Source: Amoeboradix gromovi (lineage: Eukaryota > Sanchytriomycota > Sanchytriomycetes > Sanchytriales > Sanchytriaceae). Taken from it: a DNA stretch of 22,753 nt. The stretch is from contig JADGIF010000079.1 in NCBI GenBank assembly GCA_018985225.1, forward strand, positions 1 through 22,753, given 5' to 3'. How positions within the stretch are numbered: position 1 is the stretch's first letter; each line of letters starts with the position of its first letter. Under the pieces are notes generated by a model. The model saw nothing but the letters and a program-made list of their open reading frames with translations, was not told the DNA's origin and made no database searches. Positions 1,975-13,023 of this stretch are shown here, piece after piece. A program made the position numbers and the translations under genes.

Positions 1975-2182
1975 AACGCAAGACCTAGTTCTCAAATTCC
2001 AAGAAAACTTGCTGATTTGTTTTCATACGTAGCCACGTATTAATGACACTCTTTTGGTACAATCAGCGACTTCTCTTATCTATAACACTTTTCATTTAAT
2101 CTACTTTGCTAGAATTATAGTTTCACATTATTTGATTTTTGTCGGTTTTATTTCTTCCACAACTCCGTGATACTGAATACCA

Positions 2183-4379
2183 ATGGATTTTTTTGATTCT
2201 ACTAAAGAAGCTCCAAAACCTGTTGATTTTCCTTCATATCCTAACACAAGATATGACATTGATCGTCCAGAAAGCCCATTGATATATAGCAATTACACTT
2301 GGTTATATCCTGATAATATACCATCTTTTGAAATCTTCTCATGTGAATTGCCTTTTGTCAAAATAGAATTAAATGAGAAATACAGCGATAAATTCGAATC
2401 CAAGTCTGATTCAGCTAATGACTTTGCACAGCATTTGCGCCTGTCTATATCTAAGGATGAATTACTCTCCAATCATTCAGATGATCTTGTTGACCCATTA
2501 GATGAATTATTACCTCAAAATACCAAATTAAAGCCTCGCAGTCTAAGTATAGATATCCCTCCCTCACCAATGGATATGCTGCCTAGTCCTAGGGTGTCTA
2601 TTTACAATGCTCAACGAGATAGAACATCGAGCATCACTTCAGTTGCAACTAACATTAGTGCTATTCTCAACAACTATAGCAATACTGCGGAAAAACAAGA
2701 AACAAGTATTACAGAGTGGAAGCAGATTAGTGTGTTTTCTAATGAATACAAAGAGTTTTTATTAATGATATGTAGCAGTGTTTCCTATCCAGTCTCTGAT
2801 AAATTCTGGCCCAATTTATTGTCCATTGATTACCCTTTAATAAACACTAAAGATGCCGCTTTCGAGGTCTATTCCGGTCAAGAGTACTTGAAATATAAAG
2901 TACTAGATAACTGTCCTTTTAATGGTAACATATACAGTTTACTAAATCATCTTATAGTTCGCTTACTAAACTCATCAAATAACAAGTCTTCAACTCGAGA
3001 TGTACTAAATGCACTGGCGTTGTTCCGATTCTTTTGTTTTATTATCGAATGTGAGTTTGATTTATCATTCTTTAACCCTAGTAAATCAGATAATTCTCCT
3101 GTTAAAACTAAACCCGAACTAGACATTCTTTGTGAGTTGTTGATTAAAACAATACAGAATTCCAACTTCACTTCTTTACTGCATATATCTCTCTATAATG
3201 AATCTATCCATGTTCTTGTTTTGTTAATGAACAACGTCGACTATTTAAACAATTATATCACTCTTGAGTTTGCTAACAAATTGCTAGCCAACGCTCTTTC
3301 ATTCACCTCTCCCAGCACTCTGTATGGCTTGCTTTCTATATTTGCTACTACTTTGCCTCCGAGTCTGGAGTATTACCATAGCTCTAGTTTGTATTTTTAT
3401 TTACTGGTAATTTCCAAAGACATTGCTTTATTAGATGATTTAGATTACAACCTTGTGTATAAATCATTAGAATACATTGAGCAGTTGCCTCTTTTACAAA
3501 CATTGCTGTTTTTGGTGATTCATAACAAACCCTCATTTATTGGGTACTTGAAAAGCAAAAGTGACCCTGAATCTTTTATAATACCTATACTACATGTGAT
3601 TCATAACAATCTACGTAACAAAAACCGGCCCGCCTGTTCTTTATATATATCATTGCTATTGTTATTTATTCTTACCAATGATAGCCAATATGCCCAGCAA
3701 CTCCAGAACATAACAATAGCAAATGCTCCTGTTTTTATAGATAAAAGAATGGGGAACACCAGCTTGTTAAATATCGTGTTTGCCAGCTGTACTCTATTGT
3801 TGATTTACAACTCTGGTGGCCATAAGGACAAGTATATTCAATCTATGTCACTATATATACTTTATCAGATAGCAAACAATATCAAGCAGATACATCCCTA
3901 TGGTGCTCACAAGTTTATTGCAATGATGGAATCGTTTTATAAGAAATTCAATGAGGGCTCAACAGTCTACTATGATATCCTGATAAACTGTATAAATGTA
4001 CTGAACGTACTTGTATCAAGCAACAATGTTAAGCAGAATGTAAATATTATTTATTGCTTGATTTATAAACAAAACTTATTTGAAGCAATTGGACACCACG
4101 AAGGATATGAGGAGTATTCTATGAACATATTGAAGGTACTGCAGATTAATGTAGGTGGCACATCTGTTAGATGAAGTTAAATCAGCAAATTATAATGATC
4201 CTGAATTATTGTACAATATGGTCGAAAATGCAATGATGAAATGGCAGAGCAATATAGTAGAACCAGTAGAAATTATAAAACTCAAGTATTCAATAGATTT
4301 GGAATTCTTTAACTCTTATATATGGATGGAGATAATGGACTATCCCATGATTCATTGGGGCCTGCAGAACTACAATTAG
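2183..4379 (+). CDS. Dymeclin-like Golgi protein (frame break near 4155)
   Basis: Residues from about 187 onward follow dymeclin throughout. Anchors are the opening block with DKFWPNLLSIDYPL (human FWNQLLSF), the IIPILHVIHNNLRNKN and YISLLLLFILTND blocks, HKDKYIQS, and near the end YCLIYKQNLFEAI (human LLYKRDLFE). The terminal block LEFFNSYIWMEIM matches EEFFIPYVW but lies in the next frame. The first frame stops at 4172-4174 and the second opens after a TAG at 4152-4154. A GT-AG intron starting at 4155 and ending at 4170 (16 nt), 4176 or 4185, or a single extra base, would join them. With the 16-nt version the product is 726 aa. Dymeclin is a peripheral Golgi-associated helical-repeat protein involved in secretory traffic. 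A disordered 185-residue N-terminal extension with Ser-Pro sites is unusual, and the N-myristoylation MG start is absent. Confidence 0.85.
4155..4170 (+). other. Candidate micro-intron or frameshift site in dymeclin
   Basis: Both reading frames overlap only between 4155 and 4171. The shortest frame-restoring GT-AG interval is GTGGCACATCTGTTAG (16 nt), preceded by exon AG as in the chitin synthase intron. Ends at 4176 (22 nt) or 4185 (31 nt) also restore the frame; the 31-nt version ends in GTTAAATCAG, resembling the GTTAATTTAG end of the chitin synthase intron. A one-base insertion fits the protein alignment about equally well, so the nature of the break is undecided. Confidence 0.4.
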
Positions 4380-5552: not shown

Positions 5553-8087
5553 TTATTTGTTTAAATCTTTAAACTTTATACTGTTCGTACAACATTTCTT
5601 GAACGTGTCTTCGTATAGTTGCATTGTGTATAACGGGTACTCTTTATTCTCTATTTTTTTTAAAGTGGTGCTCAAGTCAAAGTCACCGTAAGCTCGTTCT
5701 CCGTGTACTATTTCATAGAGCAATATCCCAAAGGCAAATAAATCATCCATTTCGCCATATCTGTAGCTCAATCCATGGTTGAATTGCTGCACTATCTTTG
5801 AGTTTAGATACCTAGCATACAATGGCTGATTTGCATCATTATGTGTCATTATCGGCTTAATTCTTATTTCTCCAACCACCAGTCTCATTGTATTTATATC
5901 CATGATATATACGCAGTGCAGGCCTATGTTACCATGGTACTGCTTCTTAGCATGCAGTGCTGTTATTCCTGTTATAATTTGTGGGATTATCTGTTTCACT
6001 TGGTGTTCGTAATCAGTTAGTTTTAAAAGGTTAGTGGCAGAACTTAAAAACCAGTCGTATAATGTTAACTCGTAGTGCTCATATATGATCAAATTCTTAT
6101 TTGGAGTTTCGCAGTATCCAATAAATTGGTGAATCTTTACAACCCCACCCAGCTTACAAGCCATTTCTACTTCCTCTATAAAAATTAACTCATTTACTTT
6201 CTCGAGGCTTTTTATTAAAATTATCTTGTTGTTATCATCCAACAACAGCTTGCCTCTTTTTATCTCGTATATCCCCACATGTGCAATTACCTCTAATGGT
6301 TTGATTAAATGTGACGGAATCTTAAACTCTTCAAAGTTTTTGATTATTTTGTCAATTGGAACTACAGGTGTATTCTTGTGTATCTTATGCTTTTTGTAGC
6401 TCTTTCGTGACCAGATTACGAGAAAGACTAACAGCGACATTGCCAATGCCGACATAACAGCTAGGATTGCTATAACTGCAGACGGCAGCCCTAAAGAGGA
6501 CTCTACTGATGCTGCGTTAATTGCAAGTGAGGGAGTAGGAGCGACAGTGATAGCTGCTGGAGCAGTACCGACAAAGTAAATACTGGGCGACTCATAAGAA
6601 GCTATATGATCAGTTTTAGATATGATTGAATCAGGCAAGATATGCAAGGTACTTTTAATTCTAGGAGCACCTATTTTATTGGATGCGGTACTTAGATCAT
6701 AAGAAATAGCAGAGTCATGAGCACTTGTGCTTGCATATGAATTCGCTATATTGGATATCGGGTTGGCAGCTGAGTCTGTGGATCTCATTGTATAGTATTT
6801 TTGTGGTTTATCAGCATTGGATACCGCAGTTGACGGTATGTTTTCTGAATCATACACAAATGATTGCGCATTATGTGACTCGTTGACTTGGCACTGATCT
6901 AAGTATATGGATTGATATATAGTGTCATAGTTGTACTCATAGTAATCTGAATTGGTATAGTTGACTATAACAATTGTAGGATGATTGTTTTGAATTGTGG
7001 AGTAAATGGTCATGTTGCTGTAAATGTTGGTTAATAGATTAACAGATTGAGAGGTGCATAGAAGGGTGACTGTTGACGACTGCTGTATCGATGTTGTAAA
7101 TGAACTGGACAAAACGCTAGTAAAGTGATGAGTAGCTGTGTCTAATGAAGTAATCGTAGTATTGAGATATTGTGTTGTGTTAGCTGTAACAGTGATATAA
7201 ACATCGCTAGTGAATATAGCAGTGGATGAGTGCAACGGAAAAACAGACTCATTCGGACTTAAGCAGTTGTATTCGATAAACAGGCTAGGAGACAGCAGAG
7301 TACCGTAATTAGATGATTGCATAGTTTGTGGAGGCAAAGAATAAGACAGGGTATGATTCACATAAGGATTGGAACATGAAATACATGTGCTATAATTAAT
7401 GCAGGTCTTGCAATTCCGAGGACAAGGATTACAATTTACACCGTCTAAGTAGTAGCCATCAGAACAAGATAGGCATATGTACTCATTACAACTGCTGCAA
7501 TTCAAGTTGCAGCTGTGGCATGAGTTGAACTTGAAATATTCATTTGTCAAACATGAATTGTCAGTACAAGTGCCATTTAATTGAGGAGATCTAACTAAAT
7601 CAGTCAGTAAATAGTGCTTCTTATATTTGCAACTTATGCAATCATGTGCCAAAGGACCGAGACACTCGTAACAGTCATCGTGGCAAGACTTACATAGAGT
7701 AACACCCCACATATTTTGGATGTTAGATATGTAGTAACCATAAGGACAAACAAATACGCAACTGAGGCTTCTATTGTTGGGGAGCACTTGCTCACCAACG
7801 TACCTCTTGTCCGAGCTTGGAATGGCAAACCCCCAATACCAGTATTCCCCAAGTGTATAGAGCCATTTCAAGCCCATTAACATGCAGTCCACATCATCAA
7901 ATGAGTGGTCTATTATGACACCTTGTACCCAGAACACTTGAGCCAATAATTCACCACTTGGTCGATTTGGATTATCACCTGAGAAGAGATATCTAGACTT
8001 AGAACCAGTTGTTGGGGGCCAAAACCATAGCTGGCCAAAATCATCTAAAGTGGTGTCGTTGTTTATGTATAGTGGAATATCAATCAT
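5553..8087 (-). CDS. Receptor-like membrane pseudokinase with Cys-rich ectodomain
   Basis: The layout over 844 aa is a ~100-residue N-terminal region, a furin/GF-receptor-like cysteine-rich segment (about 110-240, repeated CxxC pairs such as CHDDCYEC and CPRNCKTC), a Ser/Thr/Asn-rich stalk with many N-glycosylation sequons (about 245-530), one membrane helix (about 538-559), a basic stop-transfer stretch (RKSYKKHK), and a kinase-like domain from about 580 to the end. The beta-3 lysine is kept (IILIKSL, K626). The catalytic loop reads HGN at 718-720 instead of HRD, its Asn is C725, and the DFG position reads GEI. Phosphotransfer is therefore unlikely, and a scaffold or ligand-sensing role is inferred. 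The C-lobe ends early (KFKDLNK). No signal peptide follows the ATG at 8087 and a stop lies just upstream, so a 5' exon may be missing. It is divergent from mS23. Confidence 0.8.
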   Translation of the reverse strand: MIDIPLYINNDTTLDDFGQLWFWPPTTGSKSRYLFSGDNPNRPSGELLAQVFWVQGVIIDHSFDDVDCMLMGLKWLYTLGEYWYWGFAIPSSDKRYVGEQVLPNNRSLSCVFVCPYGYYISNIQNMWGVTLCKSCHDDCYECLGPLAHDCISCKYKKHYLLTDLVRSPQLNGTCTDNSCLTNEYFKFNSCHSCNLNCSSCNEYICLSCSDGYYLDGVNCNPCPRNCKTCINYSTCISCSNPYVNHTLSYSLPPQTMQSSNYGTLLSPSLFIEYNCLSPNESVFPLHSSTAIFTSDVYITVTANTTQYLNTTITSLDTATHHFTSVLSSSFTTSIQQSSTVTLLCTSQSVNLLTNIYSNMTIYSTIQNNHPTIVIVNYTNSDYYEYNYDTIYQSIYLDQCQVNESHNAQSFVYDSENIPSTAVSNADKPQKYYTMRSTDSAANPISNIANSYASTSAHDSAISYDLSTASNKIGAPRIKSTLHILPDSIISKTDHIASYESPSIYFVGTAPAAITVAPTPSLAINAASVESSLGLPSAVIAILAVMSALAMSLLVFLVIWSRKSYKKHKIHKNTPVVPIDKIIKNFEEFKIPSHLIKPLEVIAHVGIYEIKRGKLLLDDNNKIILIKSLEKVNELIFIEEVEMACKLGGVVKIHQFIGYCETPNKNLIIYEHYELTLYDWFLSSATNLLKLTDYEHQVKQIIPQIITGITALHAKKQYHGNIGLHCVYIMDINTMRLVVGEIRIKPIMTHNDANQPLYARYLNSKIVQQFNHGLSYRYGEMDDLFAFGILLYEIVHGERAYGDFDLSTTLKKIENKEYPLYTMQLYEDTFKKCCTNSIKFKDLNK

Positions 8088-8142
8088 TCCAGATATTCAC
8101 AACAAAGAAAATCATTTTGCGGTTGTAGAAACAGGGAGCATA
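8088..8142. promoter_or_regulatory. Short bidirectional promoter region, pseudokinase / mS23
   Basis: Only 55 nt separate the minus-strand ATG (8087) from the preferred mS23 ATG (8143), so both genes must share or overlap their control sequences. No clear TATA box is visible. If the longer mS23 frame from 8050 is used, the coding regions overlap. Confidence 0.35.
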
Positions 8143-8979
8143 ATGCCAACTCATATTTTCAAAAAAGCAAGGAAAAACACTAGGTTTGTTAGGCACTTTG
8201 ATTACAACAATATTAAAGAGACAACGGAGAAGCAAGTAGCGTCCAAATTACGGGCATATCCAAAGTGGCACAGGGCTATGACAAAATATCCGCCATCCGC
8301 TCTTCTAGCAAAAGCTCCTTCCCACTATATTGAAACTAATCATCCATCCTCATTTCCCTTCTCGATCAAGTATCCGACTCCAACTGGTAAGCATAAACGA
8401 GACACGTTCAAAAGAAAAATGATCCCACCTCCTTTAGAATATCATGATAGTCTTATTTTCAAGCTAGCTACTGACTTTCCTTTTGAACTGGCTAAACCTC
8501 AGTATCTAGCAAATACTGAAGAAGAGCTAAAAAAGGATTCTACTCTGCAAAAACAATTTGAGGATTTTCAAGCAAAAATGAGCACATCAGAGGCTTACAC
8601 CAAGATAGCGGAAATATTCAAGAAGCGGCAACTAGAGAACTGCGATGACTTGTACAGCGCCTTTGATAAAATGGATATTCAAGGATTTAGACAGCGAGAT
8701 GTCTTGGAAAAGGAGGCAAACTCAAATAACCCTGATGAGCAACAAAGTTTAGAGAAAGATGACAGTCAAGCAGCTGCGATGACTGACGAAGAAAGATTAA
8801 AAGTGAAAATGTTTTTGATGATGAAAAAAAAACACGACCAAATTTACAATAACTCATCTGTTGATGCAGTAGATGATCCATTTATTGATATTAAAGAAAC
8901 TAAACCTGCTACTTATAAAATTTTGCATAAAGAGAGAGTTTATATAGCGGAAAACCAAAAATATCAGAAATTCAAGTAA
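8143..8979 (+). CDS. RSM25: Mitochondrial small-subunit ribosomal protein mS23 (Rsm25)
   Basis: The product matches the fungal mS23/Rsm25 family, a structural protein of the mitochondrial small ribosomal subunit. Two blocks are diagnostic (numbering from the ATG at 8143): AYPKWHRAMTKYPPSALL at about 38-55, equivalent to the PxWYxxVxxxPPS block, and LIFKLATDFPFELAKPQ at about 104-120, equivalent to the family RxxHPWELARP block. Length is 278 aa, near yeast Rsm25 (264). The open frame extends upstream to 8050, but those 31 residues overlap the divergent pseudokinase and are hydrophobic and unlike the family. The start at 8143 instead gives a basic N-terminus (MPTHIFKKARKNTRFVRH) suited to mitochondrial import. 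The C-terminal half is charged and helical. The gene is convergent with the 61-aa membrane protein (36-nt gap). Confidence 0.8.
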   Translation: MPTHIFKKARKNTRFVRHFDYNNIKETTEKQVASKLRAYPKWHRAMTKYPPSALLAKAPSHYIETNHPSSFPFSIKYPTPTGKHKRDTFKRKMIPPPLEYHDSLIFKLATDFPFELAKPQYLANTEEELKKDSTLQKQFEDFQAKMSTSEAYTKIAEIFKKRQLENCDDLYSAFDKMDIQGFRQRDVLEKEANSNNPDEQQSLEKDDSQAAAMTDEERLKVKMFLMMKKKHDQIYNNSSVDAVDDPFIDIKETKPATYKILHKERVYIAENQKYQKFK

Positions 8980-9201: not shown

Positions 9202-9950
9202 CCAAAAAAGATGAGTTAGCCGTAAGCCACAAAAAATCTTACTTCATTTGTGTCGTTTTTTATCCCTCTGAATACAGGTTTCCTTGAGGTTGCATTTAAA
9301 GCTTTTACGTCAGCATCTATGGAGAATGAAGAGTATCTAATTTCATAAGGGTTGTTATTTTAAAAGAACTCGTAATTTATTCTCGAGAGTATAGTTCTAT
9401 GAGATATTTCTAGTGTAATTTACTTGATGTGTCCAACCTTATGCCCATCAAATAGGACAAAAAATTATTGAATATCAATTCACGGATTTCATTCTATGCC
9501 AAGTAAAAAAGGTGTTAATATGGAATTTACAGCTGAACCCTAGTCAAATATTTCAAAATTTAAACAGATTCTTAAATAATTGTGCGGTTTTTGCGTTGTT
9601 TTCATGCACACTTTGTAATGGAGCGAATTTTAGATATCATCCCAAGTTACCTAGAATTCAGAGATGTGAACTCTGAATTCTTTCTGGTCTTCGGATTAAC
9701 ATAGCCAAAGTCTCGACATTCAATGAAGGAGCGGTTTATGATTTGGGAAATTAAAACTTAACATTGGTACAAGCCATCAACGACAAAATTTGAAAAATAT
9801 AAAGCAAATAAAAAACATTGCATATTTCAAAGAGCCAGCTATCGTCTTGTAGAAAATTTCAGGATTTGCGTGAAGATAATCTACAATCAACATCTTTTTT
9901 TAAACTTTCAAAATTATATCTGGGTACCGTCTTGATATAGGCCAAAGTAG
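9202..9950. other. Long intergenic region upstream of chitin synthase
   Basis: This is 749 nt without a convincing ORF. It separates the divergent 61-aa membrane gene and chitin synthase, so it probably carries both promoters. It contains a perfect 11-bp inverted repeat (listed separately), a TTGGTACAA at 9764 and a TACGTCA at 9307. No repeat family member was recognised. Confidence 0.45.
9653..9681. repeat. Perfect inverted repeat (11-bp arms, 7-nt loop)
   Basis: AGAATTCAGAG, loop atgtgaa, then CTCTGAATTCT. The arms are exact. It sits 270 nt upstream of the chitin synthase ATG. It could be a dimeric-protein binding site or an RNA hairpin if transcribed; nothing in the sequence decides this. 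Confidence 0.7.
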
Positions 9951-12900
9951 ATGGAAAACGAGCAACCAAGAGTTAGGAAGTACGGTGGAGTGCGTGAAGC
10001 TGCTGCATTAGAATCTAAGCCAGATGAATCTACTCAGCATGTAAACTTATACACAAATATTAGAGATTCACCTCCAAATCGCGATAACAATAATCAGTCT
10101 GAAAATGCCGAAGTTAAGCCAAGGCGTTTATACGGTACTGCTAGGGGAGATGCTGCCCTGCCTCTAGAAGGGCCCACGGATCCGGAGGAGGAACCGGAGG
10201 AACAGGAAGCCGTGATCGAAGAAGTGACTGAACAAACTGCTATGGACTACTTTGCTGGTAATAAAATTGACAAGGGAAAAATGACCTCAACTTCCGAAAA
10301 GAAGGATGTCAAAGTCAAATTTGGTAAGTCTGCAAAACCTGTGAAGTTGAAAAAGAAGCTGACAGCAGAAGAAACAATGATTGGTCATCTAACATTTAGA
10401 AGAAAGGCGTGGATGTTCTTTGTAGCTATTATGACTTGCTGGATTCCTGAAAGATGTGTGAAAATCAGAATAGATTCACCTGAGAAGCGTACAGCCTGGC
10501 GTGAAAAGGTTACACTTTGTTTGTTGATGTTGTGTTTTTGTATTGGTGGCATTTTTACTCTGGAAATTAAGAGATTCATTAGCTGTGTCGATGGGGATCC
10601 TAAATTAAACATCATAAATCCCATTCACAAAAACGTCGTCTCCCAAATTGGTAACACTCAAGTTTTACTTAACGGCCAAGTATTCAATGCTGATCCTAGC
10701 AGTAAACTGGGCGCATATGTGTCAAAGTATGCTGGTGTTGATGCATCCAAACTGTTCCCTCGTGTTTTTAAGGGTACGTACGATCAGGATCTACAAAGTT
10801 GTATAAATGATACTATAATTGACAGGGTCAGTAATTACTACCAGTATCTCCAGGCATATACTTCAAAGCGTAAGTATAACTTAACTTTTGATAACCCGTC
10901 TAACAGTTATATCAATTGTATGGATCCGAATGGTGCATACACAAAATGTAGATATGGCCCAGACATCGAATCGGATCTGAGTGAGAATTTGGTGGGCTCC
11001 ATTTTGCTGGACAAGGAAAAACTTATGAATGAAACAGATCGTAAATGGTTTATTATTGGAAACACCGCATATGACGCAACGGAATATGTCAATGGCATTT
11101 CAGAATTTGACTGGAATGATCCATTGCGTCAACCACCCGGTAGCGCTTTAGATGTTTATAGTAGAAGGTTCTTTTTAAATGATGATATCACTATATTTAT
11201 AATGAACAATTTTTATACAGATGCCACCGCTAATTTTGTTAATTTGAATGGCAGTCCAGCTATCCAAAAATGCTTTGATAAGCTTTTCCTGTACGGATAT
11301 GTGGAACCTCAAAATAGATTTGCTTGCTGGGTTTTAAACATTCCATTTTATGGCATGTCAGTTATTGTTTTATGGATATTGTACTTCAGGTTGATAACTG
11401 CGTTGTTATGGTATATTATTACACCTCGTGGCTACAGGAAAGACGCGTATGTGATATGCTTTATTCCATGTTACACTGAAGGTCCATCTATGGCTGTTAC
11501 ACTGGAAACGCTAGCTGCAGCTGATTATGAGGATGAAAAGAAGCTGCTGATGGTTGTTTGCGATGGCAACATTACAGGTAAAGGTAATTCCAAGCCAACC
11601 CCAGAGGTAGCACTAGATTTGCTTGGGTGGAAAGGTGAGCAGCCCAAGGCAAGAGCTTACTTGGCTTTAGGCAAGGCAGATGCAAAGGTTAACATGGCAA
11701 AAGTTTACAGTGGGTTCTATGAATTTCAAGGACATACCGTGCCATTCATGGTGATAGCTAAGGTCGGCAAACCGAGTGAAGCATCCGCAAGCAAACCCGG
11801 TAATAGAGGCAAGAGAGATTCGCAATTGATTTTAATGAACTTTTACAACAAGTTGACTTACAAAGGTAGAAAAATGTTTCCCTTGGAGTACGAGATATAT
11901 TTTCATATTAAAAACGTAATCAAAGTAGACCCGCTAGAGTACGAGTATTGTTTAATGGTGGATGCAGACACCAAAGTAGATGAGGGCAGTCTTAAGTATC
12001 TGATCGGACCTTTAATTGAAAATCCGATGATTATAGCCGCTTGTGGTGAGACCCAAGTGAGTAACAAATATGCATCCTACACCTCAATGATTCAAATATA
12101 TGAGTACTGGATTAACCATCATTACGGTAAATGTTTTGAATCATTCTTTGGCAAAGTGACATGTTTACCTGGTTGTTTCTGTATATACAGAATGAGGTAT
12201 CCTAGAGGTGAACCGTTCTTGTGCTGCGATAACATAATCAAGGACTACAGCATAAATAGAACAATGACATTGCACACCAAGAATTTACTACATTTGGGAG
12301 AAGACAGGTATTTAACAACACTGATCCTCAAGCATTTTCCTACAAAAAGATTGGTGTTTTTACCCATGGCAATGTGCTCTACTGATATTCCTGACAAGTT
12401 TGAGGTTTTAAAATCTCAAAGACGTAGATGGATAAATTCTACTTTCCATAATCAATATGTTCTGTTTAACATTCCTAAGATATGCGGCAGATGGTGCTGT
12501 GATATGAAGCTACTAGTCATGTATGAACTATCATCATTTCTAGTTATGCCAGCTGCTACGCTATATTTGTACAGTTTAGTAGTTCGGGGTCTACTTCAAG
12601 GTAATAATAGTTAATTTAGCCGGTGACTACACCATTACTTTAGCAGGACTAGCTGTACTATACGGAATACACATGGTGATCATATTTGTACAAAAAAGAC
12701 CGTCGTACTTGTTATGGCTCTTTATTTATACAATTTGCAGTTATCCTATACATGGGTTATACTTGCCAATGTACAGTTTCTGGCACTTTGATGATTTTAG
12801 TTGGGGAAATACTCGACAAGTAAGTGCTAAACAAATAAAAGCAGAAAATGATCAGGAAAATGAAGAAATATTAAGGAGACTACCGCAAGGATTCATATCC

Positions 12901-13023
12901 GATTATCAGCAACAAGACGGAAGACTAGATGTCGATGAGGATGAAGACTGGAGTATGTTGAAGAAAAACGCTTATAACAGTACAGAAAATTTAAAAGGAA
13001 CCAACAAGTATAATGGAGAATAA
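9951..13023 (+). CDS. CHS3: Chitin synthase, class IV (Chs3-like), one 19-nt intron
   Basis: This is a processive membrane glycosyltransferase (family 2) that polymerises UDP-GlcNAc into cell-wall chitin. Removing the intron at 12601-12619 joins two frames into 1017 aa. In order: a disordered acidic N-terminus, the class IV membrane pair (about 150-205) with AWREKVTLCLL, a lumenal region containing a cytochrome-b5-like segment (KWFIIGNTAYDATEY), a membrane helix near 460-480, the catalytic domain with DAD at 671-673, EDR at 784-786 and QRRRW at 823-827, then helices that continue across the splice (AGDYTITLAGLAVLYG) and the hallmark FWHFDDFSWGNTR. Yeast Chs3 is 1165 aa. The N-terminus carries the motif RxYGxxRxxAAL twice, at 9-20 and 59-70. 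AATAAA follows the stop at 13026-13031. Confidence 0.93.
12601..12619 (+). other. 19-nt GT-AG spliceosomal intron in chitin synthase
   Basis: GTAATAATAGTTAATTTAG lies between exon ends CTTCAAG and CCGGTGAC. It contains in-frame TAA stops and changes the frame. Its removal (phase 1, GCC = Ala) restores an uninterrupted chitin synthase with no loss of conserved sequence. GTTAAT just before TTTAG may serve as the branch site. The upstream exon ends in AG, the normal context. Confidence 0.85.

Follow-up and report, generated by a model that had tools for sequence, protein, structure and literature searches.

A predicted 19-nucleotide spliceosomal intron in a chitin synthase gene and its probable genome-wide class on the fungal side

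Introduction

Near-minimal introns have been described in nucleomorphs (18–21 nt), mikrocytids (16–17 nt) and heterotrich ciliates (15–16 nt), according to excerpts of PMC10245619, and the excerpted text of a Trichomonas paper places 23 nt among the shortest introns known (PMC12316389). On the fungal side, the lowest figure found in our literature search is 22 nt, in Encephalitozoon, whose introns measure 22–76 nt (PMC3629993, in excerpt) and carry TAAYTT branch motifs (PMC2483917, in excerpt). The accessible portions of a fungal intron survey say nothing of introns as short as those reported here (PMC8476143), a term search of a paper on rozellid single-cell genomes found introns unmentioned (PMC10716661), and the titles and abstracts returned by our search held no introns of such size in a fungal-side genome, which leaves room for their existence elsewhere.

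A reading of a 22,753-nt stretch of DNA (the window) from its letters alone, here called the sequence-only reading, had proposed a 19-nt spliceosomal intron in a fungal chitin synthase, adding that introns this short are known from chlorarachniophyte nucleomorphs and some ciliates and that the usual fungal minimum is far longer. The literature bears out the first of these comparisons (PMC10245619, in excerpt), and the second is overstated for the fungal side, given the 22-nt introns of Encephalitozoon (PMC3629993, in excerpt).

The introns described below share the narrow length range (18–21 nt), the GT-AG ends and the small, gene-dense host genome of those in the nucleomorph of the chlorarachniophyte Bigelowiella natans (excerpts of PMC10245619 and PMC2483917). 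However, nucleomorph 5’ sites are mostly limited to GT(A) and there is no branch signature (PMC2483917, in excerpt), whereas here GTANTT and TTAAYNTAG are both strong; furthermore, the nucleomorph is a relict green-algal nucleus and is far denser in introns, with more than 800 in about 300 genes. The mikrocytid Mikrocytos mackini is similar in its uniform intron length, conserved intron sequence, reduced parasite-like genome and total of a few hundred introns (224, against our own estimate of near 300), as given in excerpts of PMC10245619, but it belongs to Rhizaria and its introns, at 16–17 nt, are 2–3 nt shorter. Introns of the heterotrich ciliate Stentor also have a fixed branch position, most of those 15 nt long having the A at position 10, together with a canonical U2 GUAGUA, and the U1 5’ arm is reported as the canonical ACUUACCU (PMC9505925, in excerpt); in contrast to ours, they are shorter (15–16 nt) and lack a strong branch consensus. 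The microsporidian Encephalitozoon cuniculi lies on the fungal side as well, and it too has a strict 5’ site, a TAAY branch motif near the 3’ end and no identified U1 snRNA (excerpts of PMC3629993 and PMC2483917), but its introns, some 37 in number, vary from 22 to 76 nt, unlike the uniform 19 nt, the near 300 introns estimated and the U1-70K gene present here. The kind of intron is known; what is new is the host lineage, the 5’ site, and the combination of extreme shortness with a strong branch motif.

Results and discussion

Removal of 19 nucleotides joins two chitin synthase frames

The first predicted exon of the chitin synthase gene (9951..12600, + strand) is open from an ATG and comprises 883 codons and one further base, which places the intron in phase 1. 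On its own it matches the Pfam family Chitin_synth_2 (PF03142) with 498.6 bits over profile positions 23–426 of 527. In the reading frames of the window, the frame starting at 9951 ends at a TAA at 12612–12614, and the frame that contains FWHFDDFSWGNTR is a different one, open from 12583 to 13023. Cutting out positions 12601–12619 (GTAATAATAGTTAATTTAG, + strand) gave a single chitin synthase frame of 1017 amino acids without interruption, as the sequence-only reading had claimed when it placed the catalytic and C-terminal parts in different frames and joined them exactly by this removal. The second exon would then be 12620..13023 (+ strand), the C-terminal part with the stop codon, and the joined segment matches PF03142 above the cut-off (425.4 bits) across the junction to profile position 510.

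This 19-mer occurs once in the genome. It begins with GTAATA and fits the looser pattern GTA-N8-TAAYNTAG, failing the strict motif GTANTTNNNNNTAAYNTAG described below. When aligned to the class motif TAAYNTAG, it has a predicted branch motif, TAAT (12612..12615, + strand), with the putative branch A at 12614, intron position 14. The TAA of this motif, at 12612–12614, doubles as a stop codon when the intron is retained, and retention would end translation at this internal TAA with loss of the last 134 residues of the enzyme.

Two of three related proteins break at the same codon

A protein search with the chitin synthase returned six proteins, three of them close (P0001, P0002 and P0003, with 72, 74 and 64% identity). 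P0001 continues uninterrupted through the intron codon, with LLE|GGDYT compared to LLQ|AGDYT in the window and no extra residues, and the intron appears to be absent from P0001 at this codon. P0002 goes out of frame and P0003 terminates, in both cases directly after it. We back-translated the tails and tried lengths of 14–20 nt; a GTA..AG stretch fits solely at 19 nt in P0002 and solely at 20 nt in P0003. The P0003 tail fits the strict motif GTANTT..TAAYNTAG, and the P0002 tail fits it with the first A of TAAY relaxed. As a control, random tails were fitted to the strict motif at 18–21 nt, and 442 of 200,000 did so. Because P0001–P0003 are database proteins, the introns of the relatives are deduced by back-translation rather than read in DNA. 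From the P0001 pattern we infer intron gain or loss between close relatives.

P0001 has a frame break of its own 60 codons downstream (DDF|RYLLFI), where 19 nt is the sole fit among lengths of 14–20 nt, provided that the first A of TAAY is relaxed as for P0002. Introns of this size escape gene prediction: two relatives have database proteins that stop or change frame precisely at the intron codon, and the third has one that does so about 60 codons on.

A frame-break survey peaks at 19 nucleotides

The sequence-only reading had proposed surveying the genome for frame-breaking gaps and building a length histogram, and the survey, now run, peaks at 19 nt. We scanned the window and 20 further stretches of 10 kb from the same genome, 222,753 bases altogether, for stretches whose removal joins two coding frames, with scoring by codon preference. 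At 19 nt, GT-AG was found at 7 places compared to 0–3 for seven other dinucleotide pairs (4 compared to 0–2 at a stricter threshold), a modest peak because every frame break offers several splices. At a lower threshold, with all GT-AG splices of up to 40 nt listed, the scan gave 13 frame breaks, 10 of which contain a GT..AG stretch of 19–20 nt with the common motif GTANTT...TTAAYNTAG (nine of 19 nt, one of 20 nt). These 10 scan introns were picked from the alternatives by their common sequence, with other splices equal or slightly better in some breaks; in a further break, on stretch L021, a 20-nt motif intron adjoins the splice proposed by the scan without coinciding with it. Two breaks on stretch L005, at 2326–2409 (+ strand) and 9340–9460 (− strand), have no motif intron inside and may reflect faulty assembly, pseudogenes or a different kind of intron.

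In the same 222,753 bases, GTA-N8-TAAYNTAG occurs 12 times compared to a mean of 0.8 over 10 shuffles, and, at a length of 19 nt, TAAY separated from the AG by two bases occurs 19 times compared to 3.0. Of the 12 GTA-N8-TAAYNTAG places, 11 come after an open frame 250 nt or longer. In these 11, retention of the 19 nt brings a stop within 63 nt, and their removal lets reading continue longer, or for at least 60 nt. The arrangement with TAAY immediately before the AG at 19 nt (12 compared to 4.3 in shuffles) was rejected for want of frame support, since none of its 12 places comes after an open frame of that length. An excess at 41 nt (8 compared to 1.0) resolved into matches that overlapped true places of 19 to 21 nt and scattered sites lacking frame support. 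Motif matches of 20–25 nt that had no frame support (for example L003 + 2894 and L021 + 321) were likewise dropped before the candidates were listed.

The 10 scan introns and 11 motif matches with frame support make up a list of 21 candidates, 15 of them 19 nt long, four 20 nt and two 21 nt, with phases 0, 1 and 2 represented 5, 8 and 8 times. Three of them barely alter or shorten the frame (L004 + 4377, L006 − 8102 and the candidate on L010). All 10 scan introns have A at +3; at +5 nine have T and one has A, and eight have T at +6. The 21 candidates, 11 of them chosen by the motif, read GTA[TAC]TT, free bases, then YTTAAYNTAG, with A before Y in all 21 and T, C or A at +5.

We ran Pfam on ten of the 21 joined proteins, each trimmed to a segment that includes the junction, and in eight of them one domain match spans it. 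These eight matches are to protein kinase (VT|DFG), thiolase, short-chain dehydrogenase, the C-terminal domain of glycosyl hydrolase 31, amino acid transporter, Dymeclin, chitin synthase and cytidylyltransferase. In the joined segment of a TBC protein the junction falls between two Pfam domains, and the sole Pfam match of an RFC1-like protein is below the cut-off and stops short of the junction.

The Dymeclin case lies within the window. The open frame before the intron, with a candidate start, extends over 2177..4135 (+ strand) and, unjoined, matches Pfam Dymeclin as far as profile position 603 of 673. A second predicted 19-nt intron, GTACTGCAGATTAATGTAG (4136..4154, + strand), fits GTA-N8-TAAYNTAG and is followed by the last part of the gene (4155..4379, + strand; 74 codons and the stop). 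Joining over 4136–4154 gives a frame of 727 codons from 2177 and carries the Dymeclin match to profile position 671. Elsewhere in the window, a kinase-like frame (5553–8096, − strand) and an MRP-S25-like frame (7942–8979, + strand), both taken from stop to stop, overlap head to head by 155 bases (7942–8096).

The motif is in excess across the genome

We counted motifs over the whole genome (6.78 Mb, 366 contigs), with the reversed pattern as control. The strict 19-nt motif GTANTTNNNNNTAAYNTAG has 200 matches (107 + 93) compared to 8 for the control. Among the 100 of these places that were listed, 12 are copies of GTACTTCAAAATAATGTAG, 11 of them exact and one with a single change; the copies at L026 711–729 and L027 749–767 (contigs C29 and C93) sit within a dispersed repeat that is about 95% alike between the two and are flanked by no long frame. 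About 170 strict-motif places stay above the control, assuming that the unlisted half resembles the listed half. Since the strict motif recovers six of the 10 scan introns, the genome total may be estimated at near 280 introns; the density of the scan, 10 per 222,753 bases, suggests near 300. It is this class (200 compared to 8 genome-wide, and 12 compared to 0.8 in the scan sample), rather than the chitin synthase case alone, that rules out chance.

With the gap left free, GTATTTN{0,30}TAAYNTAG has 171 matches in the whole genome compared to 80 for the control, reading frames being unused in this count. Among the 100 matches listed, 45 are 19 nt long, 15 are 20 nt, 7 are 21 nt and 1 is 18 nt, with every other length represented at most 4 times; the count took in introns with the GTATTT...TAAYNTAG motif only. 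The lengths of the motif-bearing introns thereby peak sharply within the 21-nt limit, a trait of the near-minimal class (15–21 nt).

The same counts bear on the 5’ site. The version of the motif with G at +5, GTANGTNNNNNTAAYNTAG (GTANGT), has 5 matches compared to 6 for the control and thus no excess. Because GTANTT is found 200 times compared to 8 but GTANGT only 5 compared to 6, the 5’ site of the class is strong but differs from GTRAGT, and the class lacks the canonical U2-type 5’ site with +5 G (GTRNGT). It does have other U2-type traits, namely GT...AG removal that restores a conserved frame and a branch-like motif whose spacing from the 3’ AG is constrained. The GTANTT site without +5 G, which the sequence-only reading had not remarked on, is an odder point than the branch motif. 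Nevertheless, +5 G is a consensus trait and no requirement, and introns of nucleomorphs and Paramecium also do without it (PMC2483917, in excerpt).

Several core splicing components are present

The genome has one U6 snRNA gene (65.1 bits) with ACAGAGA, one U2 snRNA gene (102.1 bits) with GUAGUA, a Prp8 gene that is a single open frame of 2233 codons with seven Prp8 domains (L028 720–7421), and a U1-70K match of 41.6 bits. Searches for U1 and U5 snRNA and for SF1-HH matched neither this genome nor any control genome, and the search for U1-C, without a match in this genome, matched only E. coli among the controls. Because the controls, apart from E. coli for U1-C, also lacked matches, these results do not show absence of U1, U5, U1-C or SF1-HH. 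Nor do we claim loss of U1, since U1-70K is present; from its presence, a U1 particle with a diverged RNA is to be expected.

The sequence-only reading had taken the shortness of the intron to imply an unusual spliceosome or branch-site geometry, and had noted a branch-like motif only a few nt from the 3’ AG. The motif is real, the putative branch A lying 5 nt from the final base. However, U2 and U6 have the canonical GUAGUA and ACAGAGA, and TAAYTT is known as a branch motif in Encephalitozoon (PMC2483917, in excerpt).

Alternative explanations and a model of recognition

Taken together, the frame join and the genome-wide class peaking at 19 nt support, as the best reading, the 19-nt spliceosomal intron that had been proposed in the chitin synthase gene. 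We put at roughly 0.93 the probability that 12601–12619 is a U2-type spliceosomal intron, spliced from the chitin synthase transcript, and a member of a class of mostly 19-nt GTANTT...TTAAYNTAG introns that interrupts frames genome-wide. The gene might instead be one intronless frame with a base wrongly missing or added near 12600 by assembly or sequencing. Indeed, a single-base deletion in the window also reopens the frame, small coverage figures (unit unspecified) appear in the names of EukProt contigs, both for this genome and for a relative, and the two motif-less breaks on L005 may be errors of this sort. However, the one-base-shorter reading adds six residues (VIIVNL) that P0001 lacks, two independent database proteins are broken at this very codon, and errors would not yield the same GT..AG 19-mer motif 200 times compared to 8; we consider such an error extremely improbable.

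If the stretches were skipped in translation, by ribosomal bypassing or frameshifting, rather than spliced, the consequences at the protein level would be the same. Ribosomal bypassing predicts no branch motif, whereas a GT...branch-like TAAY...AG anatomy with a fixed 3’ part, as well as genes for U2, U6, Prp8 and U1-70K, are what splicing predicts, and we give translational skipping hardly any credence. Assignment to the minor, U12-dependent class is suggested by the YTTAAY ahead of the 3’ end, by GTAT as a common start and by the lack of a U1 snRNA match in our search. Introns of that class have the 5’ consensus RTATCCTT and the branch consensus TCCTTAAC, which resembles TTAAY. Against this, the 5’ sites depart from the U12 consensus, the 21 candidates reading GTA[TAC]TT, the bases ahead of TTAAY are variable, and U2, U6 and U1-70K are present, so that a U12-type origin seems very unlikely.

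For U2-type introns of this form, we envisage that U2 (GUAGUA) would pair with the YTAAY of the intron, that the A at intron position 14, 13 nt past the first base and 5 nt ahead of the last, would serve as branch point, and that the spliceosome would then use the next AG as the 3’ end. Because the 3’ motif is fixed, length varies between the 5’ splice site and the branch motif, where 19- to 21-nt introns have 5 to 7 free bases. With length variable only 5’ of the branch motif, 19 nt is probably the shortest length that the machine accepts. The +5 G of a 5’ site pairs with U1 and U6, and a changed 5’ site would weaken such pairing. The combination of a strong non-canonical 5’ site with canonical U2 and U6 core motifs leads to a testable prediction on U1. 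The class would also let one ask what sets the floor on intron length: the 5’ site, the branch point or the spacing between them.

Lineage of the host genome

We placed the lineage by its proteins. A EukProt protein matches the Prp8 of this genome with 100% identity across the 601 residues searched, and the next relatives of this Prp8 are ENA and EukProt entries; among the 120 matches listed, named species with full coverage reach at most 61% identity. In a Prp8 tree of 23 rows chosen from these 120, a four-row clade joins Rozella (99/96) on a long branch. Three of the four rows in the clade are of odd composition and the outgroup consists of animals, with none beyond; given these features and the long branch, long-branch attraction is possible. 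A Nop56 tree, of 27 rows chosen from the matches listed, only shows a five-row clade of environmental and EukProt entries, also on a long branch. We conclude with moderate confidence that the lineage is an early-branching holomycotan, perhaps rozellid-like. The term fungal, applied to the chitin synthase by the sequence-only reading, is loose, since there is no close named relative and the lineage falls with Rozella, on a long branch, in the Prp8 tree.

We would give even odds to a fuller picture, in which an early-branching holomycotan near Rozella has its introns clamped at a 19-nt floor, its 5’ site rewritten to GUANUU without +5 G and recognition by a fixed span of 13 nt from the 5’ end to the branch, which would amount to an independent fungal-side origin of near-minimal introns with their own recognition code. 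Near-minimal introns on the fungal side, nearer to the best-studied spliceosomes, would offer an independent estimate of the smallest usable intron.

In the course of the Prp8 comparison we also observed that the Prp8 encoded here and its three nearest database relatives have no Pfam match to MPN/JAB (PF01398), a domain matched in most, not all, of the other Prp8 entries listed.
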